The notes below the pieces were generated by a model, which did no database searches, was not told where the DNA came from, and was given only the letters and a program-made list of their open reading frames with translations. A DNA stretch of 64,000 bases. Source: Nocardia sp. CY41 (GTDB lineage Bacteria > Actinomycetota > Actinomycetes > Mycobacteriales > Mycobacteriaceae). Shown here in pieces: positions 971 to 48,135 of the stretch (position 1 is the stretch's first letter; every line of letters starts with the position of its first letter). The position numbers and the translations under genes are program-made. Location: contig NZ_VUOS01000005.1 of the NCBI RefSeq assembly GCF_009829325.1, positions 62,001-126,000 of the forward strand. The letters are read 5' to 3'.

Positions 971-1915
971 ATGACGCTGCGTTTGCCGGACTGGCTCCCC
1001 CCGGTCGTAGTGATGTGTGTCGCCGGGCACTTCCCGCTGGGCGACGAGGACGCGGAACGACGCGCCGCCGATGCCTGGTCGGATCAGGCCGAATGGTGTC
1101 GTGGGCAGGCCGAATATCACGAAGCCAAGGCAAAGCCGCCCGAGGGCCAACACGGCGCCACCGTCACCGCGATCGCCGACAAGCACCGGAGCACGGCCGA
1201 ACGCTTCCGACAGCTGGCCACCAATTGCGACAGCCTCGCCAGGCAGCTCTACGAGAGCGCCAACGCCACCGAGCTGCAGAAGATGGTCATCATCAGCATG
1301 GCCGTGATCCTGGCCATCCAGCTGGCCCGGTGCGCACTGATGTTCGCGGCCGGTGGTCCGATCCAGGCCGCCATAGCGCAGATGGCGACCCGAACCGCGG
1401 CGCAGCGCGCGTGGATGAGATTCGTGGCATTCCTTTCCGGACGCGGTGCGGAACTGGCCGCGGAACGCGGCTCGATGGTGCTGCTGCGCAACGGAATCGT
1501 GATGGGAGTGGCACTGGGCGGCGGCACCCAAGCCGGCGCCCAGGCGGTTCAGGTCGCCAAGGGCGACCGCGAACAGATGGATTGGACGTCGGTCGGCGTG
1601 GCGACGGCCGCCGGCGCTGTCGGTGGCTTGTTCGGCATGATGTTCGGACTCTGGGCAGGGCCGAAGGTCGCCACCATCGGCGCGAACGCCAACAGCGCCG
1701 CCGGACGGGTGGCCCTGCAGCTCGCCGGCACCACCATGGTCGGCGCCGGAGCCGGAGCCGTCGGCGCTCTCGGCGGCACCGCCGTCTCGCTTGCGCTGTC
1801 GGACCAGCCGTTCAGCCGCAAGGCCTTCACCGAGGGCCTGATCCCCGGTATCGGCAGCGGATTCATCGGCGCGGCAGGCTTCGCGGCACAGGGGATGCGC
1901 AGCCGGGCACCACTT
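971..1915 (+). other. Domain: CpnT/WXG100-like N-terminus with hydrophobic segments
   Basis: Residues ~1-315 of the giant protein. A helical start (LPDWLPPVVV, then DAWSDQAEWCRGQAEYHEAK) resembles the CpnT N-terminal WXG100-like fold used by ESX-exported toxins of Mycobacterium and Nocardia. A probable membrane helix, MVIISMAVILAIQLARCALM, lies at residues ~104-123. Several Gly/Ala-rich hydrophobic stretches follow, for example VGVATAAGAVGGLFGMMFGL and GAGAGAVGALGGTAVSLAL. There is no cleavable signal peptide. The family match is by pattern; export by ESX is inferred from it. Confidence 0.75.
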
Positions 1916-4900
1916 CCCGACACGACTGCCGCCCCCGCCGCCGCCCCGGATGTCACCGCGCCCGAAGCGTCGCCTGCTTCGCTCGTCGACGCACTGCGCT
2001 CGCATGGCATCGTCACCGCCGACTTCGATCCGAACAACCCCTCCCCCGCCCATCAGCAACAACAGATCGACAATCTTGTGGCGCTGCTGCGCCAAGCTGG
2101 GGCCACCGTGGACGCCCCGGCCCGTCCCACACTCCCAGTGAACAATGCCGACTGGCAGCCCACGAATCTGCCGAGTGTGTCGCCCGACAACTTCAGCCCG
2201 GTCAAGTCCGCCAAGCCCCCCTCCGATGCCATTGCCACACCCGCGGATCCGGCCCCCGCAGGGACAACGCCGAAAGCTGACGGAGGCGCTCAACCACCCC
2301 ATGTGTCGCCGCCGAAGGAGTACAAGCCGACTCCGGAGCAGCCGTTCTCCGTGCCGAACAACAGCATGGACTGGGAACCGCCCGCAGGCATGCCCGGCGC
2401 CCTGATCGACAACGTCAATCCCGTCAAGACCGTCACCTTCCCCGCGGCCGCCATCGCGTCCACCGTCAACCCGGTCGGCGTGCCGAGCATCGGGACGGAT
2501 CCGACGCCGGCGGAGACGCCCGGGTCACGGAATGCACCTGCCGCACAGACAGATTCCGAGATCAACGGTGCCGCGAAGGCTCCCGCCGACGGTGAACTGC
2601 CTCCAGCACCGCACGACTCGGATAACAGCACCGCCGAGAACGCGGGCACAGCACGGCAGACAACCGGACATGATCACCCGGCAGACGGGCCCGACCACTC
2701 GGCGCGGCGACACCCCACGGATACCGGCGAAAGCAGTGCTCGACCGGCCGATGCCGCGCCCGGGTCGGTTCACGGTAACCGGGTCGGGTCCGCAAACACC
2801 TCGTCGGCGCCGCATTCCACGCCGGAGCACGCCGCGGTGCCGGACAACGCCGCCGCGACGGCCCGACCGCACCCCGGCGGCCGGGACACAGCGGGTGAGG
2901 GGCAGGGCGGGCGAGGCCGCGCCGTCGCGGATGCCCGCGGCGACGATCCGGCGGCCGGGCCGTCGTCATCGGTACGGCATCGAGGTGTCGCAGCGGACGA
3001 GGAATCCGGTCCGCGACCCGCCACGACGGATCCGCACGACGCATCCGCGCAACAGAGCCCGACCGTGTCGGCGACCGAGGGCGAGGGGGCACAACGGGCT
3101 CCTGACGGCGCCACCGATCCCGAACCGGCCGTGCCCGAGCTGGTACCGGCGGCGCCGCACAAGGATTCGGCCGACGGCCGGTCATCGGACCACGACGTGT
3201 CCCCGAGTATGACGATCACCACCGACCTGCCGCCCGCTCCACAACGCGGTGATTCCGGTCCGCGCTCACCCGGCGGGGACAGGTTCGTGGACGCGGCCGG
3301 ACAGCAGCGGCAGACCGCGCAGCCGTCGGGCGGCTCGGCGCGACCGGCCGCAGGCGTCCAGCCCGGCACACCCGCTGCCGGTGGTTCGCCCGCTGCTGCC
3401 GGAGGCAGTCGGCCGCCACGTGTGTCGGCCCCGAAGACTGCTGCCGCGGAGCGCCCTCCTGCCGTCGAACCGGTCGAAGGAGCGCGCGGGCAGGCCGAGG
3501 ACGGCCATGCCCCGTCACGGTCGGCGACCACCCACGCAACCGACAATGACAACCGGACCGCACCGCCCGCTGCCGCCGAGCCGGAGTCGGAGCACGGTCG
3601 CGCGACAGGCGACGAGACCGCGCGACCCACGCAGCCGGATGAGGCGAATACAGCGGAGCACGCACGCGCGGACGACAGCGCGAATGGGCAACAGGCCGAG
3701 GGGCATCCCGATGTAGTCGACAAGGCGGGACCATCGCAACCGAAGCCCGGTGAGTCCGATACCACCGGAGACGATACCCCCGGCGGTCGTGCGGGTGACG
3801 ATGGCGCGAATGAGCAGCAAGCGAAGACGAAATCCGATAACGCCGACGACACGGACGCGCCATCACCCCAATCCGAACCCGTTCGTGCGCAGGAGGATTC
3901 GGATTCGCCGCTCACCGCTCGCGATGCCGACCCCACCGCGGACGCGCGTGCGAGGGCGAGAGCCGAAGTAGAGCAGCGTAATGCGGCGGAGCGGCAGCAG
4001 AACGAGCTGGTGCGCGAACACCACCGGCAGCGTGTCGAAGCCGCGGCCGAGCGCGAGCGCGCCGCCCATGCCGAGCTGCAGCGGCAGGAGAAGGCCGTAC
4101 GGGTGGCGGAGCAGCATGAGCGGGCCACGCGCGTCGGCTTCGGTGACAAGATACGCGATCTGCTCGGGCCGGGCACGGCGGAGGACCGGGTGGCCGTCGA
4201 AGCCGCGCGGGCCGCTCAGGAACAACTCCGCCAGGCTCAGGTGAAGTTGGCGGAGTGCCGGGATACGTACGAGGCGGCGGTAGCCCGGCATGACGCCGCA
4301 GCCCAGGCCAGAGCCCGTGACCTGGTCGAAATCTCGGACAACGCCGGTGTTTCGCTGATGAACGACTACGAGGCCGGGGTGCTCACCGATCGCGACGCCG
4401 TGTTCGACGTGGTTGCCCAGGAGCGGGTACGCACGGCCCTGGATGCCGGTCGCGCGATCGGGGAGTTGCGGAAGCCGGGCAGCACGGCCGACGGTACGAG
4501 CCCGTTGGCGCACGCATCACCGGAGTCGTTGGCCGACACGATGGCGCGGGGATCCCGGGAGGAGCGCGTCGCGGCGATGACGGAATGGATTCGCCGGGGT
4601 GACGACCGGCATCGGCTGGTGCGGGAGACGCAGGCCGCGGCGTTCCTGCTGCTCGAACACGGACCGGTCGATATGAAGACCGGTGAGGGCAAGACCATCG
4701 TCATGGTGATGAAGAAGGTGTCCGACGCCATTGATCACGGCACCGCACATGCATGGACCAGTAGCGATCTGCTCGCCGGTGAGCTGGCCGGTGAGTTGCA
4801 CGCATTCGTGGCGCGGCCGGATTCGGATACCGGGATCGATGTGGTCCGGATGGATCAGGACGGTCCGCTGCCGGAGCCGGTGCCGGGCCGTAGCCGGATC

Positions 4901-7900
4901 GTTGTGGGCACCAAAGAGGACTACCTGTTCCGCGCGTTGAAGGTCGCGGATTCGATGATGAACGAGCTCGCGGCCAGTGGCATGTCGCACCAGGAGGTGA
5001 CCGCACTGCGAGAATTCCTCAACACGAAACCGTCGATCGATCTGATCAAGGAACGGCTGGATACCGCGGCATCCGACCACGGACTTGACCTCCGGTACGA
5101 CCCGTTCCCGGCGGGCAAGCTCACCGTCGACGAATTCGACACCATCTTCGACGGCAATTCCGAGTGCGTGCTTTCCCCTGGAGCGGCGCAGGAGGCCACA
5201 CCCGAGGTGGTCGCCCAATTGCAGGGGATCTGGGATCGGCTGACGACCGCCGAGCGCGAACACGGTTTGACGCCAGCGGATTTCAACAGGCCGGAGAACA
5301 CCCGGGGAATGTGGGCCGCGGAAACAACCCCGGCGGCGGTCGCCAAGCTGGAGAAGGTGGCGGGTGGACCGGTCACCGACTCGGAGCTGAAGCTGTACGC
5401 CGATGCCGCCAACGCCCGCTGGGGGCTGGAGAAGGGCACGCACTACATCACCCGGGCGGACGACGGCGAGGGCGCGAAGATCGGCATCCTCGCTCACGAG
5501 ACCAACGACAAGGCGATGTGGGACAGAACGAAGTCGACCGAGGTGCGCTGGCAGGACGTCGGTCAGTTCGTCGACCTCAAAGAAGGGCTGCCGGTCCGGG
5601 CGAATCAGGAACATTCCCTGCGCATGTCGGATCAGCAGTTGATCGGCAGCAAATTGCTGTTCGAACCGTCCGGTTTGTCCGGGACCATGAAGGGCGTCGA
5701 GGGCATCACCTACGACCTGTACGGCGTGGGGCCGGTGCCGGAGCTTCCGACATTCTATACATCGCAACGGGTCGTGGAACCGCCGAAATTCTACGAGAAC
5801 ACGCACGCGAAACTCACGCAGCTGGCCCGTGACATCGTGCGGGATGCACATGTGGTCGACGGGGAGCAAACGGGCCGTGCGCAGTGGGTCGTGTGCATGG
5901 ACAACGGCGAGATCCGGGGAGACCCGGATGCCGGCCGGATCGGACTGGTCGACCTGCTCCGCACAGCGGCGAAGGAAGAACACGGCGCGGAATTCGAGCT
6001 GAAGTTCGAGGTGGTCGACGCGGAATTCTACGCCGAGCACGGCGGTAGCAATGCCGACGCCGAGGCCCTGGTCAGGCAGAAGATCGAGGAATTCGGGGAC
6101 AAGGGCACCATCTATATCACCAACAAGGACGGAGGCCGCGGCGCCGACCCGACACCGTCGCAGGAGGTGATCGATCTCGGCGGTGTCGACGTCAAGGTCA
6201 GCGGCGGGCCGTCGTATTCCGAGCGGGTGAACGACCAGGTCGACGGTCGTGGCGCCCGTGGCGGATCCGGCGACGACCGGGAGCACGGTGGCACCCCGGG
6301 TTCGGCGGTGCACTACGTCTCCCCCGAGGACTTTCTGGGCCGGGTCACCGACCACGGCGTCACGCAGCAGATCGTCCAGTACACGGAAGCCGTCAAGGCC
6401 CACCGGGCCGCCCAGGAACAGCACGAGGCCCGCAACACCGAGGCGACGCGCATCGAACTCAACAGGACCGAAACGGCGCTGCGAAACGCCGAGTCCGACC
6501 TGTGGAAGCATGCCGTCCCGGCGATGAAGGACGCCGTCGAGCAGAATCAGCTCGCCGCCAAATACGCGAGCGCCAATCAAGCCAACGCCCCACCCACGGA
6601 CGCACATAGCACCGCGACCCGGCAACCCCAGCACCCCCCTCCCCAATCCGCGGGGACCGCGGCTGCGCATGCGACCGGTTCACATGCGACCTCGCACGCC
6701 CCTACCGCCACCCACAACGGCACCGCCGTCCCGACCGCCGCAGGCCTCGCCGCCGGGGCAGCATCCAACCTGGCTTCCGGTAACCCACCGGTCGCAGCCA
6801 ACGTGCGTGAGGAGCACGGCGACAGCACCCTCCGCCACCTCCTGCAGGTGCTGGACGCACCCGGCGGACAGGCGGCCGCACCGTTGCTGCCGGTCGCGCA
6901 GGCCGTCCGCGACGCGGCACTCGATCAGGTCGAGTCCCAAGGGATCCCCATCGGCGCCGACGTCGCCGACCACGTGCGCGAGACCGCACGAAATCTGCTG
7001 CGCACCAGCCTGGATCAGCTCGATCCGGCGCAGCGTCAACTCGTCACCGACGCCGGGACGGCGTTGCAGCAAGGACGGCGGCTCGAAGACGCGCACACCG
7101 CAGCCGTCGCCCAGTTGGTCGCGCAGGTGCCGACCGCCCAGCCCGTCCTCGCGGCCGCTGCGGGCACCACCGTCCCGTTCGACCAGTTGCCCGCCGACGA
7201 CCGCACCCAGACATTGCAACGGGCGCAGCGGGGAGACCAATCCGCAGCGCAGACATTGGACCGCCATTTCGGCCCCGCCACCGCCCAGGCCATGTGTGCC
7301 GTACTCGGCGGGGATACGGAGCACGGCACCCCACCCACGCGGATCCAGCTCCTGGCGCACGCCGTCGCCCGGGCCACGCTCGGCGCCGCCGAAGCCGCCG
7401 GCTGGCAAGTCCCCCCGGGCGTCGACATCGGCGACTGGCTGCTCAGCCAGGCGCGGAACACGTGGCTCGACAGCCTCAATCACTTGAATCCCGCCGTACG
7501 CCGACTCGTCAACGAGGCGCTCGATCCCAGATCCCGCAGCGACGACCTCACCGACGCTCAAGTCACCCTGTTCGGGTGGGTCGCGCAGGAGATCGCAGTA
7601 CGGGCGGCCGATCCGACGGCCCGGCAACGGCAACCCTCGGCCGACAACCGTGACCGTGCGAATTCCGCGAGGACGGCCGAGGCCGATCGAAGAACCAAGC
7701 AGGCCATCGCCCGGCAGTTGTTCGAGACGTTCGACATCGAAGTGCTCGGCCTGGACAAGCCGGGGATCTCCGTCGACACGGCTCTGTCGATCAGGAATGC
7801 GATAGTCGACGGTTTCACGGCAGGGCAGGAGATCAAGCTCGACGTCGTACTGGTCGCCCCCATGGTCGGCAATACCGGTGCCTGTATCTGGACGCCCGAA

Positions 7901-10900
7901 GGCATCGAAAAGGACGCTCCGACCTTCATGGTCCTGAACGAGAACCTCTTCGGTGACCCGGAGAGATTCCGAAACGCCATGCGGAAGGCGGTGCAGGCAG
8001 GCCACCTGATGGCCCCGACCGGCGACCCCGCATACGACGCCGTCAGTCACGAGATGGGCCATCTGCAGGATCGAGCCGCGCGGCAGGGGCGCTACGACGA
8101 AAAGCCGATCGCCCATCTACGAGACGGAGCGGTCCAGGGGAAGGACTACGAAGACTCCAAAGAGGCACGAGCATTCGGATTCCTCTACACCCATTTCGCC
8201 GAGTTCAAAAAGGCCGGCATGCTGCCACCGGACCTCGATTTCGATGACTGGCTGGGCCAGCTCGATTCGTACAGCAGCAGCAGGAAGAAGCTGAAGGAGG
8301 CAGAGGAATACAACCGTAGACTTGCGGGTGAAGAGTCGCAGGCGACGGAAATAGGCACTTACGAGCCCAGAATGGGCGACCTCGCGGTATTCAATCCGGC
8401 AGAAGCACTGGCCGAGGCGAACAACGCGTTCGGCAGGACCGCACCGGCCGATCGCACACATCCCGCCTACGTCCTGCAAGCCCTGCTTCGAGACATCCCG
8501 TATTTCCAGGTGTTGCGGGAAGCCGAACAGCGCAATGCCCTGGTGCAAGCGGACTATCGCGGATCCGTCCCGGCGGCGTCCGAGTTCGGCACGAGCCTCG
8601 CCCCGAACGGCCCGTCCGCATCCCTGGCCGCGAGATGGCGCGCCATGTCCCCCACCGCCCGCGCCGACTACGCGCAACAGCAAATCGCATACTTGAACCC
8701 CGACACCGGTTTCGTGCTCGACGAGTTGGCCCGGCTCCAGGCGGAGCACCACGCCACGGTCGCATCGACCGCCGATCGCACCGCACAGACACCCGAAACG
8801 CCAGCGCCCCAGGATAATTCATCACAGGCGGAGCCCGGACGACCTGACGGCAGATCGGCTTTCCCACCCGAGTTCTGGCAACAGCACAGTCAGTCCCACG
8901 CGCGGGCAGCTGTCCCGGCCCCGATCCACCTCAGCGACCCCGACGAGCCAGGCAGCCGCAGAATCCCGGAAGCCGAAATGGATACCGCTCTCCCCGAGTT
9001 CGGCGGTTTGACCGGTCGAGAGCTCGATATCCTGCGCATGAGTGCGCGGGGTCTGTCGTACCGGGAAATCAGTACCGAGATGGGGATCCCGTATTCGCAG
9101 CTGTACCGCCACGCCGGAAGCGCCAGCGCCAAGCTCGGCCGGACCAGCCTGGTACGAGCCGTCTTCGCCGCAGATCAGGAAGGCTGGCTCGATGACGGCG
9201 CCGACGACACCGTTCCGCACGTCTCACTGACTCCGCCGGAAGTTGCCATCCTCCGCTTGGCGGCCGACGGGCTCTCCGCCCGTAACATCGCCACAAGACT
9301 CGGAATGAACAGATACCGAGTGAGAAACTTCCTGGCGGAACTGCCCGGCAGATTCAATACCACCGGACGCATCCCGGCCATGCTGGCGGCACACCGGCAA
9401 GGATCGCTCGAGAGCGGCCGCCACAACCCGTCCGTGGCACTGGATCGCGTCGTTTTGTCGCCACGCGAACGCCAGGTCCTCGATCTGATGGTGGTGGGCC
9501 TACCGGACCGCGCGATCGGTGACGAGTTGGGGATGCCGGTAACGACGGCACGGGGGCACCGATTCCGTCTGCAGGCCAAGCTCGGCACTTCCGATCTCGA
9601 GCAGATCAAGGTTCTGGCCGGCCTGCTGCCCGCCGCCGACGAGCCGCAGCCCTCCGCCTTGCCCGGCCACTTCCAGCCCGCTCTGCACAACGCCCTGACG
9701 CACGCCGCTCAGCCCGATCCACAGCAACTGCTGGAGCGCGCGACATCGCAGCAGTTGGACCACGCGTTCCATGGACTTACCACTGACGATTGGAATGCAC
9801 TGCGCTCGGTGAAAGCCGGAGCGGATACGCCCGAAGCTCGCGCGATAGCACTTGCGGCAGCTCACAGACTGGTTACTTCCATTGGCGCCGGACATAGCTC
9901 GGAGCAGGAAAGGCTGGCCGCCGCGCTGGCGGACGCGAGCCCGGTGAGCCTCCGGGAAGCACTCGACAGGCTCACCCCAACTCAAAGGGAACTCATTACC
10001 AGTCGGTATGCGCGCAACGTACCGCCCGCCCAGTTGGCACCGATACTCGGCTACGACGACGCAACGTTCGACTCCTGGGCTCTCAGCGTTGTCCGGCAGG
10101 TAGCCGTGCACATTGCGAACCGAGCCGACGAGTCTGCGGAGCATCCCGGCCGGGCGGAATCGGCAGCCACACCGGTGTATGCGGAAAACGAATGCCTGAA
10201 TGCGGTCACGCAGTGGCTGGACGACCACGCCCTGGCACGCCTCGCGGAGACCGGAACGCTCGACGACCATTCACCACAGGAACCGAGGGACACCGGTCCC
10301 TACACACCCACACAGCTGGACAGGCTGCGGAACATCCTGCATGCCGCCCTCGAGGGCACTGCGCCCACACCGGAAGATCTGCTGAACGAAGCAGACATCG
10401 AGCAGATCGATCGCGCGCTGCAGGCGCTCACCCCCAGCGACCGGTTGAACCTGCATCAGCTCGCGTCCGGCACGAACAGCAGGTCCGTCCGCGCGTCGGT
10501 TGTCATGTCGGCGCGCCGGATGGTGAATTACCTTGCAGCCGAATATGACATATCGCGGGAGATGCTGGCCGGCACGATAGCCGACGCGGGGCCCGCGGAT
10601 CTCCTGGACGCGTTGAGCGTACTCAGCTCGCAGCAACGGAAACATGTCACCGGTTTACTCGCTCGGCCGAAATCATCTGCCCCCGCGGCTTCCGCGACCG
10701 CGAACCGTGTCGACCCCGACGCCGAGGCGCAGACCGAGCGAGCCGCCCAGCGAATGGCTCGGTACCTAGTGGCCCGATCCGGGACCTCCACCCCGACGAC
10801 TACAGCCGCGGCGACGTCGGCCCGTCCGTCGGCCGACAGCACCGCCGAGTACACCAGCTCCGAACTGTTGCAGATCTTCTTGCCCTGGTTGGAGGAATAC

Positions 10901-13900
10901 AAGCGCTTGCAGGACGAGCGGCACCCCCGGTCCACTACGCGCACGAGGCCGGCACCGGATCGCGACGCCCTGCGAAAGGTCAAGGCCGCCTTTGCCGTCG
11001 CCGTCGAGGCGGCCGGGCGAGGCGACACGGGAGAACTCGACAGGCTGCGGACGGCGATCCGGCAGTTGGGCAATCACCGTCAGCAACAATGCCTCGAGCT
11101 TCGGTACCTGGAGGGCCGCTCGGTTCCTGAGATCGCCGCCGTACTGGACGAAAACCTCAGCCGCGGTGCCGCCGAACAGTTGCACCGCCGCGCCGTCCGG
11201 GCACTGGCCGCAGTCCTCGAGCAGGACGACACCCCGGACACGACGCCGGACGAGCCGACACCGCTACCAGCCACGCTCGCGCAGGCGCCGGAACGCGGAA
11301 TCGAGCCCGGTGCTCCGAGATCGAACGCACCGGAGGAATTCCCGGACCCCGACGACTTCGGATCAATAAACGAATGGTTTCGCGAACTTCGGCATCATTA
11401 CAGAATGACACAGCCCGAGTTCGCTGAATTGTGCGACAGGTCCGTCACGACGATCGTGAACTACGAAAAGGGACGCAGTAGGCCCGATATTACCCTGCTC
11501 CGGAGACTTCGTGACCGACTACGTTTCTCCAATGATTCACTGATTGCCGTACTACGATGTTTCCCGAAGCACTCGAATTCAGCGAGCCGGGAATCGGCCA
11601 CACATCCGCTGATTTGGGAATATATCGCAGCGCGAGTCGGTAGCGCGATCGAGGCCAAGGCCGAGAAGCTGATTGTGAAGGAATACTCGTGGATCGCAGA
11701 GCAGCTGGCAAGCGGCTGGGATATCTCAGCAGAGCACCGGGCCGAGCTCATGAAGGTTGGCGAAGAGGCGATCGCGGTGGCCTTGCGGAATTTTGTTCCG
11801 CCGGGCAACTTCGCTGCCGTGGCGCGGTCGTCAGCCCGATACGCTATGCTCAGATCCACCTACTACGCGCCGGAAAATCGTAACGTCGGCGAGCATCGCA
11901 ATACATCTAATCGCACCGATCCAGTCGCGATCGACCTCGATGGTACAGACGAGCCGGAAACTCCGAGTGCCGCCCTATCCGACAACGTCGAATCGCTGCG
12001 AAATCAGCACGGCGAGGCGATATTCCGGCACTTGCTCCGCGCACTGGGTGTATCCGCGGCAGCGGGTGTGCAGGTGCCTGCGTCGCAGGTCCGGCTGGCA
12101 CAGGAGGTCAACGGCGAAGTATTCCGGTACGCCGAAGCGCAAGGCCGGCCCGTTCCAGCGGGCGCGGGTATCCGCGAATGGCTGTACGACATCGCGGAGG
12201 ACATGCTGGCCCGCAGGCTATTACAGCGCATCCGCGTCGGGGTGCTCGCCGAATTGCGAGGCGAGCCTGCGACCGAAACCGGGCCTGTTGTCCGCCGGAT
12301 CGCCGCGGCACCTGCGGACCGGCTCGAGTGGGCCTTGAATCGGCTTTCCCTCAACCAAAGAGCCTGGTTGTACCGCAGATTCGGACTGGAGTTGGGCCGG
12401 GCGGAGGCCGCGTCCATACCGCCGTTCAAGAGCTACGGGCCCGAGTTGTTGGTCGACTTGGACCGGGCCGCGATCCGGCGGTTGGCACAGCTGGTCGGCG
12501 ACGTCGAGGCGCGCGGCGAGGAGCAACAAGGCGCGCCCTCCGAACTCCCGTCGGCCAGCGACGTCCACGGTACTCCGCGAGCATCGACAGAAAAGCCGCG
12601 ATCGGAAACGCCGCCTCGGGGCAAACGGCGATCCCGCGGCGAACAGCTGGTTAGGGTGCTCACCGACGCACACCGCGACAACCGGAAGGCCTTCGAAGCG
12701 GGCCTCGAGGTACTCGAGCCTGCCGATCAGGCGTTTGTCCGACTCCGGGTACAGCAGGGGCTGACCCTCGAAGAGTCCGCAGCGGCACTGGGAAAGACGA
12801 CTGCCAGAACGAGATCCATACAGTCCCGAGCCACGCGCCTACTGGCGCTGAAGCTCTTCGGGCACCTCCCGTCGGCCGGGGAACGACTGAGGCCCGCAGT
12901 GCTGGAAGACGACGAGCAGCGTCCGGCATCCACCGGGGCACCGGTGCAACGAGGCCGGATCGCACGGGGTGAGCAGCTGGTGCAGGTACTGCGGATCGCC
13001 CGCCGCGACAACCGGGAACTGTTCGACGCCTGCGTACGGGAGCGTCTCTCGCCTGCGGAAGGGCGACTCGTCGAACTCCGCGTCGGCCAACGGTTGCCGC
13101 TGTCCGAGATCGCGCCATTGATGGGCAATGCCGTCAGCACCGCGAAGAACCTGCAGTCGAGAGCCTTCCATCGATTGGCGAACGAGCTGTTCGGGCATCC
13201 GCCCGTGGTCGGGGAGAGATTGCCGGACGACGCCGCTGCCCCGAGCCCGCACCACGAGCCAACAGCAGTTCCCACAACGAATCCGGCGGCCAACGATGTT
13301 CGTTCGATTTCCACTGCCATGCCACCGAACTCGGAATCGAACGCGGCTCGGAACGCACTGGCCGACCGGCTCGGTCTGACTCCGGACCGGGTGAGCCGGG
13401 GATCGGTCCGTTTGGCGGTCGCCCTCCTGGCGGAGCAGATACAGGTCATGAGGCCTGCCGCGGTGGGCGCCGTCGACGGACGCGCAGTCGTGCGGTGGAC
13501 CGCAGCCCAACTCGAATTGCATTCCGATCAGGAGGCGGCGACCCGCCACAGTGCCGAGCTCGGGGCATCCGACGTCGACGAGTCGCATGGCCGAGCCTCG
13601 GATGATGCACCAGCGGACCCGCTGGGACAGCGGGATTTCGACGACCGTCGCCGCAGGCTCGACCACGACCTGCAGGAACTACTGGGGCTGCGGGAACTGA
13701 ACCCTCCCCGTCCGATGAGTACCGGCGAGGTACTGGCCGAACTGCATTGGGTCGCGGGCGTGACACATTCGCCGGAGTTCGGGGATCTGGTAGACGCGAT
13801 CGAGCTTTTCCTGGGCACGGGCGTTGAGCAGCAGGCACCCGTCCCCCTCGACGCGGTCCAAATACACGCTTTGCGCGGCCAATTGGCGCAGAACCTGGGG

Positions 13901-31900: not shown

Positions 31901-34900
31901 GTGGCTGTACATCCCGCCCTGATCGGCAATACCGACGGCATCCCGTACTCGGTACGTGATTACGCCAATCGCCGGTCGATCACCCGGCAGCTCACGCAAC
32001 TGCGCCGGAACACCGGGAATCGCGAACTCACCACCGCGGAGAAGGCGCGTCTGCTCAACCTGGAGACCACTCGGGATCAACTGGCCGAAATCGACCGCCG
32101 CGTCGAGGACTTCGGATCGCCGCCGGTACAACTCCTCGCCTACGACGCCGAGAAGTACGACGGCAACGGCCGGATCTCCGTCTCCATCGGAGACGCCGAC
32201 GAAGCGACGAACGTCACCCGCCATGTCGGCGGCTTCGGTACCACGCTGCGGTCACTGCTGTACCGATACGGGTTCGCGGGTGCGCAATACGAGATGACCT
32301 CACGGTATGCACCCGAAGAGACCGTGGCGGCCATCATCGATATCGGCTACGAACACCCGACCAAACTGCTGAAGGGAACGGTGCCGGTTCTCCCGTTCGA
32401 TCCCGTCTATCACCGGTTCGCCGAAGTCGGTGGCTATGTCGTGGCGCGAGATACCGCGTCATACAACAGCACTCGCGAGGCATTGGCCGAACATCGGGGC
32501 AGCGCGCTGCCACGGCTGCACACTCTGCTCGGACACAGCTACGGCTCCACGACCGTGTGCTACGCGGGCCGGGACGCTCGGCTGGCCGGCGAGATCGATC
32601 AGGTGGTTCTGACGGCCTCCCCGGGCGCGGGCCCGATGACTCGGGCTACCGACTTCGGTATCGGGGCCGAGGACGTCTACGTGCTGACGGCGACCCGTGA
32701 TCCCATCACCTGGCTCGGCGCCACCACTCCCGACCGGCGCGGCCGATTCCTCAACCGCGGTCTGGGACCGGATCCGGCCGGCGAGTCCTGGGGAGCGGTG
32801 CGGGTCACCGCGGAGCCACCGAAGACACCGGAGTTCCGCACGCGCATGCAGGTCCATCAGGGTTACAACTCGTATGCCGATATCGAGGCCCGGGTGCCGA
32901 CCGAGTCGCTGGACAATATCGGCCTGATCACCGCGGGCCGTGGCGCCGAGGCCACCCGCGCCGAACATCGACCGGCCGATGCGGGCCGCGGTCCGGCGCT
33001 TCATGTCACCGATCCGGAACGCCGGCGGGCCGCCCGCACCCGCGCACTGAACGATGGCTTCGCTCCGGCGGAGGCTGCCGAAATCGAGCAGCTCATCGCC
33101 GAACTGCTGACCTACCGCGACAAGTACGGTAATCGTCCGTTCGCCTACCTCGAGAACATGCCGATTCCCAGCGCCGCCGAACCGTCCGGGCCGGATTGGG
33201 TCGCCAACCGCGGGCCGTGGTTCCGGGCGCTGCGCAAGGGCGACCTCGCCGCGCTGCGAACCATAGAACTCACCGCCAAGGATCTCTTCGAACTGAAGCG
33301 CTTGCTGCGACGTTCCCCCATCTACCTGACGCTCGCGCTGGTCGTCGCTACCGGTTTGAAAGCCGAACAGCTGCTGGGTATTTCCGACCCGGGGCCGCTG
33401 TTGTTCAAGCAGGAGAAGCGAATACAGGGCAACGAGACGATCGTCGTCTGGAAGTTCCGAACCATGCCGGAGGACGAGCCGGAAGGCCCCACCAGCAGCG
33501 CCGCCATCGATCGGGCCATGCCGTTCCAGCGGTACCTGCGTGACACATCGCTCGATGAGCTGCCGCAACTGCTGTCGATCGCGACGGGAACCATGTCCTA
33601 CCTGGCGGGCAGACCGATGCTCGACGGCGACCGTGTCCAGATGCGGAAAGTGCTCACACCCGAGGAATACGAATTCTGGGAGCAGCACCGCAAGAACGAT
33701 TTGTGGTCGGCGCTGCACTTCCCCGGCTGCCGCGGTTTCGACCGCGAGTCGCCGGAGTATCTGCGCACCAGATATCTCGCGGCCCGACTCTATTCGATGA
33801 TCGGAAGCCGGTCGGTCGACGAGTACATGCTCGGGGTGATCGACCGGTACCTGCTCGGCATGGTCGGCAGCCAGGGCCGAGTACTGATACAGAAGCTCGC
33901 CGCCCACCTGCATGGCCGTTTCCTCTCCAGCCCCGGCGCAAGTACGGAGACGACCGATGCCGCGGCACAACCGTCGCCCGACGCCGAACCCACGCACTCC
34001 CCTGATGGTGACACCGATCGACCGGCCGTGGACAGCGGCGCGGCGCAACCGTCACCCACCGCGGCGGAGCCCGCGCCCGACGACCCGCTGCTCGAGCGGA
34101 TCCGCGGCATCAACCCACTGCGCAAAGGGGACAACAGCGCCGAGTGCACCATCGCCGCAGACCTCCGGCTCAGCGGCCGGCCCGACATCGTCGCCGAACC
34201 GTCGACCACAGGACGAGCACCCGGTGACGACAACCGATCCCGCATCCGGTTCGTCCAGGCCCACTATGACACGACGTTCCAGCACGTCGAGAGCTGGAAC
34301 GACCTCGAACAGCAACTCCTCGACGCCGGCCACCTGGCACGCGGCATCATCGCCTACCGCCACCAACCTTTCGGAGGTCCGCAAGGCCACACCGTCAACG
34401 TCGTCAACTACCACGGCAGCATCCGCTATGTCGACGGACAATCCGGCCGAGACGTCACCAAGACCATCCACGCACTGACCAACCGACTCACGTTACCCGC
34501 GAGCCATCGCAACCGACCTCCGGATATCGACGCCCACTTCCTCCGCACCGACGGCCACTACACCGGGTCCCGACCGGGCGCACCTGGCGTAGCGACGCCC
34601 GTCCCTGGCCCGCCCACGGTCGATGAGCCCGCCCGCGGGCCCGGGGACTCCGACCGGGACCCGCAAGGTTCGCCGGGATCCCGAATTTCCTCGAGCACGT
34701 CGAGCACCCGCGGTAACACAAAGACCCCCGGCAACAGCGTCGACCCCGTCGCGATCGACCTCGACGACGAAGACACCGAGGACGATAATTCTGCCGAAGG
34801 TCCGCCGGCCGACGGTCCGGTGAATCCGCTCGACGGCGCTCAGGTGGTACGGCTGATCCTCGATGGCCCGTCGGTACCGGTGCAATGGCAACCGGCCACC

Positions 34901-37900
34901 CAGCTGCCGGACAGTGTGCTGCTCGCCTCGGCCGTCGAGCAGGATGTCGACCTCGACGCGATCCGTCGGAGGTGGGAAGAACTCCTGGAGGAGTATCCGG
35001 GATCGGGGTGGCGTATGGGCGGAGGGCTGTTGTTCCGTGGCGACACACGTCCGCGCAGGGACCTGTGGGCGGACGGGTTCCTACCGCTGTCACAGCGCGA
35101 CGGCAGGGTTGTCTACACGACGGTGCGGGTGAATCGGTCTGCCGATTACGGCGAATCGGTGCTGGTGGACGACGACACCTCGGAGTGGACCCTCGTCCAT
35201 CAGATCTACGTCATCGACGCGCCCGGCGGATTCGGAGTGGTGGACGAGAACGGCGGTGTCGTCTCCGTGCACTGGCCGGGAGGCCTGCGTAGCGATCGCG
35301 TCATGGGCTGTTTCGAGATCCCCGCGCAAATCTGGCGGGGCGATTTCGCCGCCCTTGCCGACGAATTACCGCGGTACTGGCGCCCCAACCCTGGATACTT
35401 GCCGGACGGCCCCACCGATACAGGGACGACTCCCGGCACCCCCCAAGATCCCGTCGCGATCGACCTCGGCCCCTACGACGACGACTCCGCGGGCCACGAT
35501 GTCGTCGTTCCCGGGCACGCCACCGGTACCCCGGCCGGGGTTGCCGAGCTGGTGGGCGAGGATCTGTCGTTTCGCGGTGATGTCGCAGAACGGCTTTTCG
35601 CACAGCACATCCCGGACGGTGAGCCGCCGGTGACGACGACTCGTGCCGCTTGGGAACGGGATGTCCGCCGTGCGGTGCGCGGTGCGGAGGCGAGACTCGC
35701 GGGCCTACGCCCCGGCCCGGGGCCCGAATCGGGATCGGGCTTGCTCGGCCTGCCGCCGTTGTCCGAGATGTTCTGGTCACGAGAAGATCCGGTGGACGAC
35801 GGCGCGCAGCCTGTCGGCCTGTACAGCCCGCCGATACTCGACGGCCACGTCCGGGACAGCGCACAGGCGGGATCGCATGGCAATCACACCGCATTCGGCC
35901 CACCCGCCTGGGTGTACGCGGCATTCGCCGTCCGCAATCCCTGGCCGCCCGAGGTACGGCCGCAGGTGCTCAACTGGTGCATGCAGCAGATTCGGCAACG
36001 GCACTACGGCGCTGCGGAAGCCGACTTCCACCGCTACCTTGCGGTCGAAGCACGAATCGCGGCCATCCGCCAGGCACTCCACGCGCCCACGGACATCGCT
36101 ACCGACCCCGGCCGGTCCACCGATCTGGTGTCGGCGTTTTCCACGAACCTCGCCTTCGTGCGCCGCGAAGCGGCCATCGGCCGGGCCCTCCTGAATCGTG
36201 GGAAGCTCAGCGCCGGGTCCGCGTACGTGGACGCCCTGCGTCGGACAACGGCACATCGACCGGTACCCGAGGACGAAGGTCAGCGTGTGCTCGAAGCCTT
36301 CGCGAGCCACCTGTCCCGGGGACGGCCGTCGAACCTCTACGCCTATATGACACCGGCACTCGATGAGCCGCTCCCACCGCGGCTCGGGTCTTCGATTCGA
36401 AGATTGCTGGAAAACCGACAGCAGGTCGAGTTGAGCATCGCTATCCGGCCTCCGGCGACACAGACACAGCGCAGAACACACAGACTGAACGTGACCGGCG
36501 CCGCCTACGAGCCGGACCCCGCCCGCGAGGGGGCGGTACGCCTCCGCATGCACGCCGCGGTAATGATCGATCAAGCTGAATTCGGCGATATAGAACTTAT
36601 TTTTGGGCTCGATGCCTCCGGAATCGTTACGGCTTACGTCGAGCCCGGCCCGGCCGGCGACTTCCTACCGGAGTATCGGTCCGCTCGGGGCGACACAGGA
36701 CGAGGGTCGTTCCTCGACTTGGTTCGGCACTTCGTGCGCGGCGCCGGCGCCGATGTGCTGCAGGTGAAGGTGGCCGACGACGCGGGCGCCGCGGAACTGC
36801 ACGGTCGCGACCTGCTGTCGCGAGCGGGCCTCGCACCGGTCGAGAACGCGCCGCAGTGGCTGAGCGAACGCTGTGGACCACCGGCGGTCGCGGCCGACCC
36901 TGTCCCGTCGGGCCTGGATCGACGACTCACTCGCGAGCAGGTGCTCGGGTTGATGGAACAGGTCCGTGTGACCTCGCCGCACGAATCCGAAAACCAATGC
37001 GGTGTCTGGCATCTGCCGCTACCCGCCGGACCGGGTGCGACCTCGGTACCGATGGTGACGGTCCGGGTGTACCTGGACGAGGCGGAGCGTTTGGGCTTCG
37101 ATCTGGACTCGCTGGCCGTGCCGGCGGCGGAAGCGTCGGACCTGTTCCACCAGGCCGGGGTGCGGGGCCCGCGGCTGCTCTATGACTCCGAGTCGTCGCC
37201 GATGGCGATGGATTTCAAGACCCGCGTGACGATTCACGAGCACATCGCGGGCGATGAAGTCCTGCCGGACGAGGGTTGGGACCGCACAACCGAGGACGTC
37301 TTCCTCGAGTTGTCTCGACTACATGGCTTGTCCTCCACTCCCCACACGAAGTATCGATGGGACCGGGAGCAAGGACACCGTGTGCTGGAACTGGAGCGCG
37401 GCGACTTCGACCACAGGCTGGACACGCTGATCGGCGGCGTCCCGCTCTTCGTCTTGTGGCAGCCGACGCTCCTCAACGAGGGCAGCGAGCTGATGGGCTT
37501 CACGCACGGCAACCCGATCCGCCGCAAGATGCGGCGCGGCGCCGACGGCCGCATCGGGTTCACCGATTCGAAACTCGCGCAATACGCGCCCATCGCATGG
37601 GATTGGGCCCGGTATTACCTCGTCAACGACTGGGCCGACGACGCCGAACGACGTGCTGTGCACTCCGAAATCCGCACGATTCTGCAATACCGATACGGAG
37701 ACGGTGTCGGTGACGAATTGGTAGCGGACTTCGAGCGCTACGTGCTGCTGGAGGCGCGCAAGTCGATCATCGGCGACGCCTACCGGCTACCCAAGAAGAT
37801 CGCCACAGGGTTCGCGACCATCGAGGAGGTGCTTCCGGACTTCTACCGGAACGTCGCCCTCGTCCGCCGCGCCGCCGGGCAGGACCCCATCTCCGAGGAG

Positions 37901-40900
37901 GCGGTTTACGATCTGCTGGCGGAATGGGCGCTACGTGAGCTGGAATTGCTGGACACGCCCGCCACCGCGGCGACTACCTGGGAGATTCCGCCCGTTCACG
38001 CGACGGAACCACGCCGGTGGATGCGGCGGATGCTGCACGCGGCTGTCAGGGAGCTCGGTGCCGGTTACCACGATGTGGACGAGTCGGCGGCACTGGCCGC
38101 CGTCCAACGCTGGGACGGACCGCCACGGCTGGAGCCGGTCAGGCTGCGGTGGCTGGGCTCTTCGGACAGCGTCATGGCCGTCGTCACAGCTGCGGTCGTG
38201 GAAGGCACGCGCGTCCGCGGCGAGGTCTATTTCACCTTTTCCTGGGATGCTTCCAACCGGCTCGTCGCAGACTGCGTCGGCGACCTCGGCCAGAAGGTCG
38301 AACCTCTCGTGCTCGACTTCGTTCGTGACGCGGGCGCGGACCGGCTCCGGGTGACGTTGGTCAGCGACTGGCCGGCTGCGGCTCGGGCCGGATTCGACTG
38401 GAATAGGGAGCATCTCGGCGAGAAGGAAGCGATCCGCAACGCCCTGTGCGACGCCATAGACGACCTCGAACGGCGCGAGCCGACCGTCCCGCCCGGCGTC
38501 GCAGAAATAGGCCGAAGGTTGCGGGCAGGTGACCTCCCTACGCCGAAGGAACTGTGGGATGCCGGGCTGATCGAGGCCGGTGTGCCGCTAGAGGAGATCG
38601 CCGCGCCGTGGGCCGGGTGCATCGACCTGGCCGACGCACCCGCTGCCACGGACCTCGGATGGAGCCAACCCGAAGCGCGGCCGGTCGTAGCCATCCCCAC
38701 GGACCCGCCCGCACAGGAAACCTTGCTGGACAACATGAAGCGCGAAGGCCGCGGCACACTGAACTCGAAGGTTGCCGCCAGGCAGATCCTGCGGGCCCGA
38801 CTCCGAGCACCCGACTACGAGGGAAACAACAAGCGGGCGTGGCGCTACCGAGACGACAACGGCAACCGGATAGTCGTGCACCAGATTCTGCCGACGACCA
38901 CAGGTGAAAAAGACCTCACCCGCAACCCCGATCCGTCGCATCGGAATGTCCGCTGGTTCCATTGGCTTCCGTTCGATGCACCCGATGCCGTGCAGCTTGC
39001 CGGAACTGTGACCGATGTCCCGGCGCGGGTATACCGGTGGCGCGATTACTACGTGGAGGAGTATGCCGACGGACGCACCCCGGAGCCGGATGATCCGAAC
39101 TGGGAGCTGATCTTGAACAAGATGTTCGAGGCGAAGCGACGTCTGCTGAATGTGCAGCTACCCCCGCATCTGCAGGTGCGGCCGGTGACCGAACACCTCC
39201 ACCTCTATCTGGATCAGCAGCGCCGCAACTACCGTCGCCGCGCGCCCTGGCTGGATCGGCTGTTCCGCCTCGCCCCGCATCAGGCTTGGTCGCCGGAGAC
39301 CGACGACGCGATTTGGCGGCCGAGCCTCAATCACAACGACATGACGCTCAGCAACCTGCGAATCGACGACGAGAACGACACCGCGACGCTGATCGATTGG
39401 GACAATGCCGCCGTCACCCATCCGCTGTGGGATTACGTGACGATGCTGTGGTCGAACTGGCCGCCGGAGATCGCCGAGCAGGTCGAGAACAAGATCAGAG
39501 CCGAGGTCCGCGACCTCGAGGCCAACGGGCTGGTCGGACCGGGCGCCGAAGCGGAACTGGATCGGCTGCTGACAATGGGATGCCTCGACTCGCTCTACGC
39601 CGATTCGCGCAATTTCGTCCAGCAGATCGCGGAGGATGCCGGCAAGGCCGACCGGCTCACCGGAAGGTTCTACTCCGACTATCGACGGCTGTGCCGCCTG
39701 CGCGGATGGGAGCCGGAGTCGCCGGATGTCGTTCGCACGCTGATGCTGGAAGCGGTGAACGAGGTGCGCACGAGGCAGGGGCTGCCGCCGCTGCCGAATG
39801 AGCCTGCGGCGCAGCCGAGTCGGCAGGCCCCCTCATCCGCGGAACGTCCGGAGGCTGTCGCATCCACGGCACGCCCGCATGCGGTTCTGCCGGCCGCCGA
39901 GGTCGCAGGCGACACCGAACTGCGGGCTGTCGTGAACGGTCTGCTGGATCGACGGTACGGTCCTCGCGACTACGCCGTGACACCGACCGCCGCACGGTAC
40001 ACCGACAACGCCGGGAATCGGTGCCTGACCGTATCGGCCACCATTGTCGCCGGGGGCACGTGGCGCGTCGGCGAATCGGGCGACATGCGTTTCCATGTCA
40101 GCCAGGGCGGAGTCGCCGAGGGCCTACCGGGCGTCGATGAAGCGGGCGATATGCGTTTCCATGTTCGCCGAGACGAAGATGGCCAGTTCACGGTGACTTT
40201 CGACCACCTGGTGGTCGATCCGGCCTTCGCGGGCGGGCACTTCGCGCAGCACTTCGTTCCGCAACTGCGCCAGTGTGTCGGCACGGATGGCCGGGTCATC
40301 GTGCCCGTCAACGGCCCGACCGGCTTCACAATCGCGGCACAGCACAGTCTTCGGCTGGATTCCGATCCGGACCATCTGGCCGAATCGCGGGAGAGCACGG
40401 CGCACCTGCTGAGCACCGACCCGCGGGAACTCATCGCCGACCCGATGCTCGACCGGTTCGACCGGCCCGCCGAGGCACGACCGACCTTCCCGGAGCTGGC
40501 CGCGTATCTCGAGCCGTCCGCACAGCAGTGGCCGCAAGACCGCCGGTGGTGGGGCGTGCTGGACGGTGCGTCCACGGACGCTTCCGATCCACTCCCCGGC
40601 GCGGCTCCGCGACCGACAGCCCGGATGGCGTCCCTCGGTGCCGAGACCGAGGATCCCGCATTGACCGGAACCGACATCGAACTTCTCACCACGCTGTTCC
40701 GCAATCGAGCCCACTTCGCCGGGAATCATCACGGGGTCTGGATCTTCGAGCTCAACGGCCGGAAGGTTGTCATCCGGGCGTCGATCAATACGCCGAATCC
40801 CAATTTCGATCCCCGGATCGGCCTCACGTTCGGGGAATCCGCCGCGGTCCGGCTGTGCCGGAAGGCCGGTGTCCGGGTACCGGCGCTGTATCACGTCGGC

Positions 40901-43900
40901 GCCCAGGAGTCCTATCCCGAGCATTACCTGTTCCACGAGTACCTCGACGGGGAACACCCCACACCGGATGATCCGTGGCAAGACGTCGCGGAGGCCCTGT
41001 TCCCGGCGCTCGACCGCCTGCACGCCCTGCACGCCGAGCACTGGGCCGAGGCCGAACCCGAGCAACAAGTACCCACCACCCGCGTCGAATGGGAGCGGCG
41101 ACTGGTTCGCGAGGTGGCACGGATCCCCCTGGAGTTCGACACCGATGATCGGCTGCACGGCGAACTGGGTCTGCCCGACCTGTACGAGATCTTCGACGTG
41201 CGGCCCGCAACGGACGACGATATCCAGCTCGGTGTGCTGCACGGCGATCCGACCTTCCTCAATATGAAGCTGGGCCCCGATGGGGCCGGGTTGCTCGACC
41301 TGGAACTGACCCAGCCGGGATCGCCGGTGTGGGATTACGTGGCGTTCGCGACAAGGAACCCGTGGCCTACCCCCACCGTCCGGAACGAGGTCATGAACTG
41401 GTGCCGGGCGCGACTGCGGCGCGACCACGGCGCGGACGCTGCTGCGGACTTCGACCGATATCTGGTGCTGGAAGCATGGAAATCGGTCGCCGGAGACAGC
41501 TTCCGGTTGCCGCTGCTGATCGCCCGCGACCCGAGTTTCCTCGCCGACGCGACGGATGCGTTGCACCGCAACCTGAAGGTCGTGTTCGCGGCCGCGGGTC
41601 GACGGGCACCGGATGAGACCCAGGTGCGTACCCTCTTGCAGCGATGGTCTCGCCAATTCGTACGGCAACGCGAAAACCACCTGACGGCTGCGGATTCGGC
41701 TGCCGATCGATCGGCAGCCGTCGAACCGGCTACCCAGGCGACGGATCCGGACACATCCTGGCTGCCGCGGCTGTCGGTGCGCGAGTTGCTGGTACGGGGC
41801 ACGATCGGGCACGACAGCGCCGCAGCGGAGGCCGGCCTGTCCGAAGCCATCGCCACCCTGCGGTGTACCGACGGACCTGCCAGGCTGGAAGCTCTCGCGG
41901 CGGAGTACGAGCCACTCGACGACGCTGACCCGGGCGTGGTGAGCCGCATTCGGCTGCGCACCGTGCTGATGGACGGCACCCGCGAATACGGCGAAATCGC
42001 GGTGCGTTTCAACCTCGACGAGTACGGACGAGTCACCGCACGTCCGGAACCGATCGGCGCCGACCTCGATCGCCTCGCCGCCGACTACGGCGGCCCGTAC
42101 CTCCTCGGACCGGCCGAAGACCTGGCCCGGCGGATGGGCGCCGATGCGATCGAGGTCGAGGTTTCGCGCAAAGACGGCGTCCGAGCGGCGCGGTGCGGCT
42201 ACAGCTGGGTCGCCGAGCCCGGCGGGCAGGCCGGGCCAGGTGCGTGGTTCGCCCGACGATGGGCGTACAAAGACCTCACCGATTCTGCGCTGCCGACCAC
42301 CCCGATCACATTCCGCCCTGCCCTGCGCCGCCCGCAGGGCACCGATTACCTGCTCGACATCGCCGAACCGGTCCACGACGGCGGCTTGGAGCTCGACGAT
42401 GCGGCCCGCATGCTGATCACCGTCGTGACGAATTCCCCCGATGTCGCCGGCCATTACACGGAGGTCTGGTGCGTCACCGACGGCGGCGGAAAGCCGGTGA
42501 AGGTGCGGCGCATCGTCGCCACGCCTGGAGACAAGGATCTGGCCGCCAATCCCACGCATCCGAAACTGCTCGCCGGAGACCGGCTCGTCGACCAGGTCCC
42601 CCTGGACGATGAACGCGCGGAAGGTCTGGCCCGGCAGGCAGGTGTCGACGTGCCGACGACGATGGCCCACTCCGACGACTACTCGTTCCGCGAAATGGGC
42701 CCCGGCCGCGTCCCCACGACCGGTGACCCGGACTGGCCACGGACTTTGCGCGCCCTGCTCCGACAGCTGCGGCGGTTGCAGGCGGTCGAGCTGCCCGACG
42801 ATCTGTCGGTCCGCACCGTAGCCGACCAGGAACAGCTGTACCTGAGCATGCAGCGGATCAAGCAGGAACAATCTCATCCGTTCCTGCACAGGATGCGAGT
42901 ACCGCTGCCGCACGAGATCTGGGTGCCGGGCGACACCACCTGGACGGCCGGGCTGAGCCACGGCAACGCCACCTTCCGCAACCTGTGGGTCCGGCCCGAC
43001 GGCGAAGTACGCCTCGACAACTGGAATCTCACCGGCGTCCGGCACCGGTTGTGGGACTACGTCACCGTCTTCTGGAACTCATGGCCGCCGGAGGCCCTGG
43101 GCCGGGTGACGACCATGGTGGAGGACGAAATTCGCGACCAGCACGGTGAACCCGGAGTTCGGGAGTTCCGGCGGCTGCGCGCCATGGCCGCCCTCGACTC
43201 GCTGTACACCGACTCCCGATACTTCGTACACAAGATCAGCGTCGACCCCGCCACAGCCGGCCCCCTGACACGTCGCTTCTACTCCGACTACCTCGCCCTG
43301 TGGAGCTACGCCGAGACGACCGGGCAGTGGCCGTCACGGGGGACGCGACTGACCTATCAGCAGGTCCGCGACCTCATGCTGCATGCCGCCGACCCGAGCC
43401 GGCCCCGCCCCGACCTGCCCAGCACAGGTTTCGACGCCACGCCGCACTCGACTCGGCGGACCACCGTCGCACCGGACCCGAATCTGTCGGAGGTGCCGGC
43501 CATACCGGATCTGCTCGCCGAACCCCCTGCCGAAAGCGAGTTGCTACCGAGATTGTCCGGCCTGCAACGGGAGTACGGCCTCGAGCTCGAGCTCCGGCTG
43601 ACCCGCGTCAACTATCTGCCCACCGACGACGAGTCCATCTCGGGAATACGGATCCGCGGCGTGTTCGTCAGCCGTGGCGAGAATCCGGCCGAGGCGGGCG
43701 ATCTGGATCTCTCCATCGAGTTCGACGAAAACGGCCGGCTCACCGCACGATTCGACAAGCTGTGGATAGAACCGTGGCAAGCCCACACCAGAGCCGTTGA
43801 TCAGGTCGTCACCTCACTCCTCGCTTACCTCCGCCGGTCCGAGGTGGAAGATGTGACCTTCACGGTGCACGGTCGCCGCGGGGCTCGCGCCGCGATCAGG

Positions 43901-45894: not shown

Positions 45895-45905
45895 CTCCGA
45901 CAGCC

Positions 45906-48099: not shown

Positions 48100-48135
48100 G
48101 TTGTCGGCGGGTTCGGGCGGTGCTTGCATCGAGAT

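Follow-up and report, generated by a model that had tools for sequence, protein, structure and literature searches.

A 14,402-residue single-frame protein of Nocardia, with an ESX-type N-terminus, a SecA-like motor and a repeated DPVAIDL tag, belongs to a genus-wide class of giants

The closest known systems to the protein studied here are SACTE_5178 of Streptomyces and CpnT of M. tuberculosis. Giant actinobacterial multi-toxin proteins were described in 2012, including SACTE_5178 of 13,652 residues (Zhang et al., 2012, PMC3482391), and in the accessible text of that paper proteins of this type contain lethal-factor-like, caspase, ADP-ribosyltransferase and MCF1-SHE domains. The same text already counts a helix-turn-helix type among the polymorphic toxin domains, presents autoproteolytic release by built-in peptidases as a known theme, and names HEAT proteins as an immunity type. 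CpnT is a substrate of ESX-5 whose N-terminal part is needed for secretion and is ESX-substrate-like by prediction (accessible part of PMC8092274), and the neighboring Esx (WXG100) genes are required for release of its toxin (accessible part of PMC7810871). EspL, for which a YbaB-type domain is predicted, acts like a chaperone of ESX-1 (accessible part of PMC6319747).

We have analyzed a window of 64,000 nucleotides (C76:62001-126000) from a Nocardia genome (a 7.86-Mb draft in 144 contigs), most of which is taken up by one giant gene (Table 1). The giant resembles SACTE_5178 in its length, its actinobacterial origin and its many effector-type domains on one chain. By description only, it differs in its motor, its numerous transcription regulators and its joint tag, which go unmentioned for SACTE_5178 in the accessible text (PMC3482391). 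As in CpnT, an ESX-substrate-like N-terminal part is followed by an enzyme domain, and WXG100 (Esx) genes lie nearby; however, the accessible descriptions give CpnT a YxxxE motif, one toxin domain and a mass of about 100 kDa, whereas the giant has no YxxxD/E and carries many modules together with a motor and an HExxH block. Huge bacterial NRPS/PKS and surface proteins fall into the same length class (PMC11573180, accessible part). Unlike the NRPS/PKS giants, this protein is a chain of regulators and enzymes; an NRPS/PKS megasynthase was rejected, as no condensation, adenylation, ketosynthase or carrier domain is found among the Pfam families shown (12, at least 25 and 5), in line with the non-PKS/NRPS character claimed in a preliminary description of this DNA.

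Table 1. Positions of the features in the window, with the evidence for each
Feature	Position	Strand	Evidence
Gene 1 end: WXG100 domain, Pro-rich spacer, C-terminal HExxH-related domain	1..219	+	PF06013 7.8e-7
Gene 2, YbaB-family protein	373..807	+	PF02575 4.4e-12
Giant gene	971..44179	+	14,402 residues, ATG at 971
WXG100_2 domain (residues 8-146)	992..1408	+	PF25547 1.8e-10
Hydrophobic stretch (residues 101-131)	1271..1363	+	hydropathy
Disordered-type spacer (residues 330-1040)	1958..4090	+	75% P/A/T/S/G/D/E/Q
SecA-like motor (residues 1091-1813)	4241..6409	+	SecA_DEAD and profile match
HExxH (zincin-like) block of head (residues 2233-2490)	7667..8440	+	conservation; HEMGH at 8048-8062
Three LuxR-type helix-turn-helix stretches	9002..9613	+	PF00196
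Sigma region 4	11042..11206	+	PF08281
XRE-type helix-turn-helix	11381..11521	+	PF01381 2.5e-9
Tag 1	11918..11938	+	
HATPase-like module, below Pfam cut-off	15401..15745	+	PF02518 7.3e-5
Tag 2 (variant DPVALAL)	15986..16006	+	
Tag 3	16463..16483	+	
Tag 4 (variant DPVAIDF)	18137..18157	+	
PP2C phosphatase-like module	19406..20056	+	PF13672 6.1e-7
Tag 5	20246..20266	+	
Tag 6 (variant DTVAIDL)	21488..21508	+	
Tag 7	22403..22423	+	
ECF sigma-factor-like module, regions 2 and 4	22583..23026	+	PF04542 4.5e-7, PF08281, TIGR02937
Sigma-region-4 and LacI helix-turn-helix array	23432..25321	+	PF00356, 2 stretches
Tag 8	25397..25417	+	
Tag 9	27245..27265	+	
LuxR-type helix-turn-helix	28895..29059	+	PF00196
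Tag 10 (variant DPVAIYL)	29186..29206	+	
Tag 11 (variant EPVAIDL)	30788..30808	+	
Alpha/beta hydrolase module (Abhydrolase_8)	32165..32713	+	PF06259 1.1e-11
Sugar-transferase module	33368..33631	+	PF02397 4.5e-16
Papain-fold glutamine deamidase-type toxin module (Gln_amidase)	34133..34447	+	PF15644 1e-10
Tag 12	34742..34762	+	
ADP-ribosyltransferase-like stretch, weak	34994..35311	+	NF041482 2.7e-6, 27 bits vs cut-off 250
Tag 13	35447..35467	+	
Tag-free C-terminal part with APH-type phosphotransferase modules	35468..44176	+	PF01636 1.2e-12, 2 stretches; best 39020-39502

The giant frame contains no stop, where about 324 are predicted from its composition (log10 P(no stop) = -142), and the other five frames across the same interval contain 100-297 stops with no stop-free run longer than 984 codons; a chance open frame was therefore rejected. 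Codon usage, scored against a training set of six neighboring genes, was best for frame +0 in 129 of 143 windows. Thirteen of the 14 dissenting windows preferred the mirror frame -0 and one preferred -2, mostly by margins of 0.00-0.02, with larger margins found only in the low-complexity head. All eight blocks aligned with N. arthritidis (G212), spanning 7,276 residues, gave dN/dS below 1 (0.30-0.66, overall 0.43), two of them (2753-2892 and 8756-9017) being paralogous matches at 36-37%. Strong Shine-Dalgarno-type internal starts are rarer than expected (4 against 12.5 ± 3.5). Restarts after the tags described below were rejected, there being no such start within 60 residues after any tag. Judged from the sequence, the giant is, as the preliminary description had held, a real single coding frame, and it is under purifying selection where it can be compared.

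Two genes precede the giant on the same strand, in the order gene 1 (WXG100), gene 2 (YbaB), giant. Gene 1 is a frame of 664 codons that starts 1,775 bases before the window; its WXG100 domain scores 29.7 bits against a PF06013 cut-off of 27.3, placing a WXG100 partner gene near the giant. Its C-terminal domain (L094:1482-2216) is related to the HExxH block of the giant by hhalign (probability 95.9%, E = 5e-9); hmmsearch with this domain against the giant and three relatives detected no relation to the block. The first histidine of HExxH is lost in all 12 copies of the domain and the second is kept in two, and gene 1 is predicted to end in a dead copy of the block. In the abscessus, speluncae and jiangxiensis groups, 11 related loci have a counterpart of gene 1 upstream of the giant; for two related loci (L059 and L066) membership in the YbaB family was confirmed with Pfam. 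The ORF listing of loci L068-L071 and L073 showed a counterpart of neither gene.

The head of the giant runs from the WXG100_2 domain (41.4 bits against a PF25547 cut-off of 27) through the hydrophobic stretch, a Gly/Ala-rich part reaching to about residue 310, the spacer, the motor and a further part to the HExxH block. One related head (L060) has no PF25547 match and another (L065) falls under the cut-off. The YxxxD/E export motif is absent from gene 1, gene 2 and the head of the giant, and 18 related heads lack it in their first 200 residues. We therefore regard the giant as working in the manner of an ESX substrate but do not class it among the canonical ones. Two matches to EccD over the cut-off indicate two ESX systems or loci in the source genome. 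We infer that the giant is likely exported by an ESX route, and infer in the same manner its cleavage and its targets.

The SecA_DEAD model scored 27.1 bits on the giant in the genome search, over the cut-off, and 23.1 bits in a second Pfam scan, just under it. When compared with known structures, the motor profile matched SecA/SecA2 at 1.7e-15. Segments that we take to be the Walker A, DExD, SGT and C-terminal motor motifs are invariant or nearly so in sets of 10 and 15 sequences, the larger set reaching as low as 37% identity. AlphaFold gave a motor model of middling quality (pLDDT 66.4, pTM 0.37), and the first 33 rows of a Foldseek search with it were SecA or SecA2, yet with TM-scores of about 0.2 and rmsd > 20 Å, so that superposition gives no confirmation of the SecA fold. 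The motor shares conserved motifs with SecA and SecA2; in contrast to these, it is embedded beside possible cargo. In another genome four motor matches lie in one frame of 16,290 codons (G360:C24:38898-49034), i.e., tandem SecA-like motors in one protein.

The HExxH motif is invariant across 11 aligned copies of its block, whereas the glutamates that are candidates for the third zinc ligand differ between these copies. The block matched no Pfam family and no PDB sequence, and its structure model (pLDDT 47.7) is too poor for use. All 17 tag-bearing giants examined have the block in the head (the window giant, G212, G310, G302, G395, G398, G365, G346, G341, G244, G109, G283, G408, G369 and G417, with the partial frames L054 and L058); G412 and G413, with one tag-pattern match each on a giant-bearing contig, stand outside this count. 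Tag and block are both kept even in G408, G369 and G417, whose motors are down to 25-28% identity. No block of comparable score was found in the tag-less giants G082, G174, G258, G289, G277, G184, G229, C11 and C121 (the G184 frame was scanned from about codon 500 on, since in slices L087 and L091 the longest frame proved to lie outside the G184 and G229 giants), nor in the tag-less L113-L115 and L117-L120 and the partial frames L065-L073. The tails of some tag-less giants (C11, G184, G229, L119 and L120) contain weak relatives of the block, scoring 4-33 bits. The co-occurrence of tag and block may be due in part to shared descent; it speaks for the block as the tag's reader but does not prove it.

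Modules of the tail were called with Pfam and NCBIfam. The helix-turn-helix stretches number at most about 19 (seven LuxR-type, up to nine of sigma-region-4 type, two LacI and one XRE), an upper figure, since LuxR and sigma models may match one segment; the remaining regulators are one sigma region 2, one HATPase and one PP2C. An array 62% identical to the sigma-region-4/LacI array is found in G408. The ESX-type N-terminus, SecA-like ATPase, peptidase-like block and regulator and toxin-type modules of the preliminary description are supported by the sequence. Its dozens of regulatory domains come down to the above count, the presence of regulators being correct, and its kinase array proves to consist of aminoglycoside-phosphotransferase-like modules, not protein kinases.

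The deamidase-type module provides the toxin-type domain characteristic of polymorphic toxins. No immunity gene lies directly downstream on the same strand, the next genes (44186-46803) running the opposite way. These are two minus-strand HEAT-repeat genes, one with a MerR domain, convergent to the giant. HEAT genes also stand beside the giants of G398 and G365, which have other last modules, and a role for the adjoining pair as module-specific immunity was rejected; the examined flank of the G212 giant has none, and the flank at hand for other relatives often did not reach far enough for a judgment. We would guess that the targets are absent from the producer, or that the modules are inactive until cut; either would fit a missing immunity gene. 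The interval 48124-49035, further on, encodes a biopterin-dependent aromatic amino acid hydroxylase (PF00351 4e-73); nothing evident connects it with the giant.

The tail contains 13 copies of a heptad tag, DPVAIDL or a close variant followed by acidic residues. Blocks between tags measure 159-1,356 residues, and the tags sit in hydrophobic-poor stretches. The tag is absent from the last 2,909 residues and from the joints near 4484-4520, 6876-6934 and 10212. Its core is nearly invariant over 102 copies from 11 giants; that pattern itself imposes the Val and Ala, and the free test is therefore the count with both positions left free, in which each is retained in 94 of 95. The Ala codon is scrambled (47/37/10/8) and the Pro codons vary too while the residues hold, so that selection on the tag appears to act at the peptide level. 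The Leu codon is CTC in 93 of 97 copies, unlike the usual choice of the giant gene, which counts against a purely peptide-level view. The tag as a pure DNA recombination site was rejected because its codons vary, though the Leu codon is unexplained.

When the window giant was compared with eight relatives (matches above 150 bits and 65% identity kept), 32 of 66 breakpoints fell within 20 residues of a tag against 5.9% expected, where two of the 66 (G346 at 6700 and G395 at 4743) are slice edges and breakpoints common to several species are non-independent. After collapsing, the figure was 12 of 28. Tag-led segments (113 from 12 giants) formed 29 clusters, and 11 of the 26 clusters having a successor had more than one.

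One tag does not serve all giants. Motif discovery in 17 giants gave a DPVAIDL-type tag in six and an IGxRP-type in C11, and detected neither in the remainder; direct pattern search added three DPVAIDL-type copies in G109 and one in G283 that motif discovery had missed. The C11 giant, from the same genome as the window (C11:58857-77192; L077, L078), has 6,112 codons, its own SecA-like motor and nine copies of [FLYT]IG[SNR]RP between modules. The use of private tags may be more widespread. On reading, three pattern matches in L113/L114 were dismissed as chance, as were stray matches outside joints (e.g., at residue 13289 of the window giant, and one in G082).

Contrary to what the preliminary description had supposed, the giant does not stand alone. 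The motor profile matched in 87 of 150 Nocardia genomes; among the matches listed there are 124 distinct frames, 108 with at least 4,000 codons and 54 with at least 10,000, the largest having 33,513. A phylum-wide draw of 396 genomes gave two matches, both in Nocardia, and a family-wide draw with a single-sequence query matched 18 of 301 genomes, of which 17 are from Nocardia; the exception, G014 (66% complete), belongs to a different genus. Alignment of the motor against named genomes yielded 20 loci, all from Nocardia, with those of the N. abscessus group nearest. Relatives in the databases bear single-domain names, e.g., a 7,180-residue 'LuxR C-terminal-related transcriptional regulator' of N. 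abscessus, and multi-toxin giants were on record in 2012 (PMC3482391, accessible text). The sequence supports the architecture given in the preliminary description, apart from the corrections above, but not its uniqueness; the 13-copy tag and the two upstream genes had gone unmentioned there.

At least one of eight close relatives has a counterpart (≥65% identity) for 12,837 of the 14,402 residues; none was found there at this identity for residues 2,660-3,634 and 8,163-8,751. N. amamiensis (G310) matches residues 10,212-14,402 at 89% identity, and N. abscessus (G302) matches 10,212-11,023 and 11,249-14,402 at 87-89%. Among the eight relatives the head is constant and the tail is exchanged between species, with frames ending after different modules. 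This is the layout of a polymorphic toxin, i.e., a constant N-terminus with variable C-terminal effector-type modules.

The 33,513-codon frame (G082:C1:2509813-2610351; L044-L049) lies in a single-contig genome of 6.42 Mb and keeps one phase across six slices; to our knowledge it is among the longest bacterial frames. Pfam over 15,000 of its codons, plus 4,999 in another scan, revealed LuxR, sigma, LacI, PP2C and deamidase modules and a HATPase below cut-off, slice L048 giving one weak sigma match only. In the G277 giant, a 5,000-codon stretch matched no Pfam family. The genome of the window has a third giant of 8,506 codons (C121:46288-71805; L075, L076), with a related head and no SecA-like motor found, which shares LuxR, PP2C, hydrolase and sugar-transferase modules with the window giant at 28-33% identity.

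The explanation that we prefer, held with about as much doubt as confidence, is that the giant would be a polymorphic precursor of many effectors, targeted to ESX, and that the HExxH block of its own head would cut it at the DPVAIDL tags. The WXG100 partner and the YbaB-family protein would bring the head to the ESX system, and the SecA-like motor would thread or hold the chain. Separation of the modules at the tags would fall to the HExxH block, on which the dead copy in the partner may act as a restraint, and the released modules would act in a target cell. This reading draws on the WXG100_2 head, the upstream WXG100 and YbaB genes and the two EccD loci; on the constant head and exchanged tail, with breakpoints at tags and segment clusters with several successors; on the tag kept as a peptide, its association with the block in 17 of 17 giants and the depletion of internal starts; and on analogy with the N-terminal part of CpnT and the chaperone EspL (accessible parts of PMC8092274 and PMC6319747). 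Against it stand the missing YxxxD/E motif and same-strand downstream gene, the tag-free joints and last 2,909 residues, the unsettled third zinc ligand, the poor model of the block and its lack of a structure match. The possible shared descent of tag and block, the weak relatives of the block in tag-less tails and the PF25547 results for L060 and L065 also weigh against it. Autoproteolytic release would take a new form here, with the peptidase near the front and reading a repeated tag.

An intracellular regulatory mega-scaffold, with a membrane-anchored head, the sigma, LuxR, LacI, HATPase and PP2C modules acting in the producer and tags serving as docking strands, is in our judgment rather unlikely. 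It would accommodate the many modules that are bacterial regulators, the absence of YxxxD/E and the lack of a same-strand immunity gene, but not so readily the WXG100_2 head with WXG100 and YbaB genes upstream, the toxin-type deamidase module, or the polymorphic-toxin pattern of head and tail.

The tag could instead be a putative docking strand for a secretion chaperone, keeping the chain export-ready and not being cut. The DNA pattern of the tag was found in 40 of 150 Nocardia genomes, and outside giants it corresponds in 24 genomes, including that of the window, to the N-terminal strand of an EspG ortholog. The EspG of the source genome (C70:14949-15770, L121; second ESX locus), of sequence DPVAIDLNVDAALL, starts with DPVAIDL; it was identified by PF14011 (4.5e-55) and by structure matches to EspG1/EspG3, with a similar strand aligning in EspG3. 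If the tag equals this strand, each tag would bind an ESX partner. However, EspG has the strand also in genomes without tag-bearing giants, and about a dozen pattern hits fall outside giants and EspG (the one read, L122, showed no convincing gene). The match was moreover found after the fact and is therefore only a lead. That the tag imitates the EspG strand and binds an ESX partner might be so; a docking strand in place of a cut site seems to us improbable.

Decidedly improbable, too, is a cassette bank, a recombining store of modules of which only parts are made or used and in which the tag is a recombination address. The concentration of breakpoints at tags would suit it, and the constancy of the Leu codon hints at a memory at the DNA level, but dN/dS below 1 in every aligned block, tag residues that hold while the Ala and Pro codons vary, and the depletion of internal starts all speak against it. 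An artefact of assembly or annotation, fusing several normal genes in silico, is scarcely credible even for a draft source genome, given that the same layout recurs on G395 and G398, the single-contig genomes among the eight relatives (on which ground an assembly chimera was rejected), that giant frames of the class lie also on G174 and G082, that no motor match among the matches listed contains an internal stop, and that dN/dS is below 1 in all eight blocks.

Returning to the ESX-targeted precursor, a bolder version is possible but doubtful. Nocardia would make self-processing effector trains, chains of 10,000-33,000 residues targeted to ESX with their own motor and peptidase, the peptidase being held in check by the dead copy in the partner and cutting a private tag. 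One export would release a dozen regulators and toxins that reprogram another cell, and the tag would be the joint at which cargo is swapped.

We found no description of the Nocardia giant class in the literature, preprints and most subscription journals aside. Beyond the preliminary description there are now the class, the companion genes, the constancy of the head and the grammar of the tags; the mechanism is a reasoned proposal. Public annotation hides such giants under names like the LuxR-related one above. The setting is a genus of soil bacteria and opportunistic pathogens, and apart from NRPS/PKS and surface proteins hardly any protein of such length has been described. It becomes testable whether the head block cuts at DPVAIDL, whether a fused SecA-like motor moves cargo, and whether the regulators work in a recipient. 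If the proposal is true, many effectors, bacterial transcription regulators included, would be delivered as one chain with a built-in motor and built-in processing.
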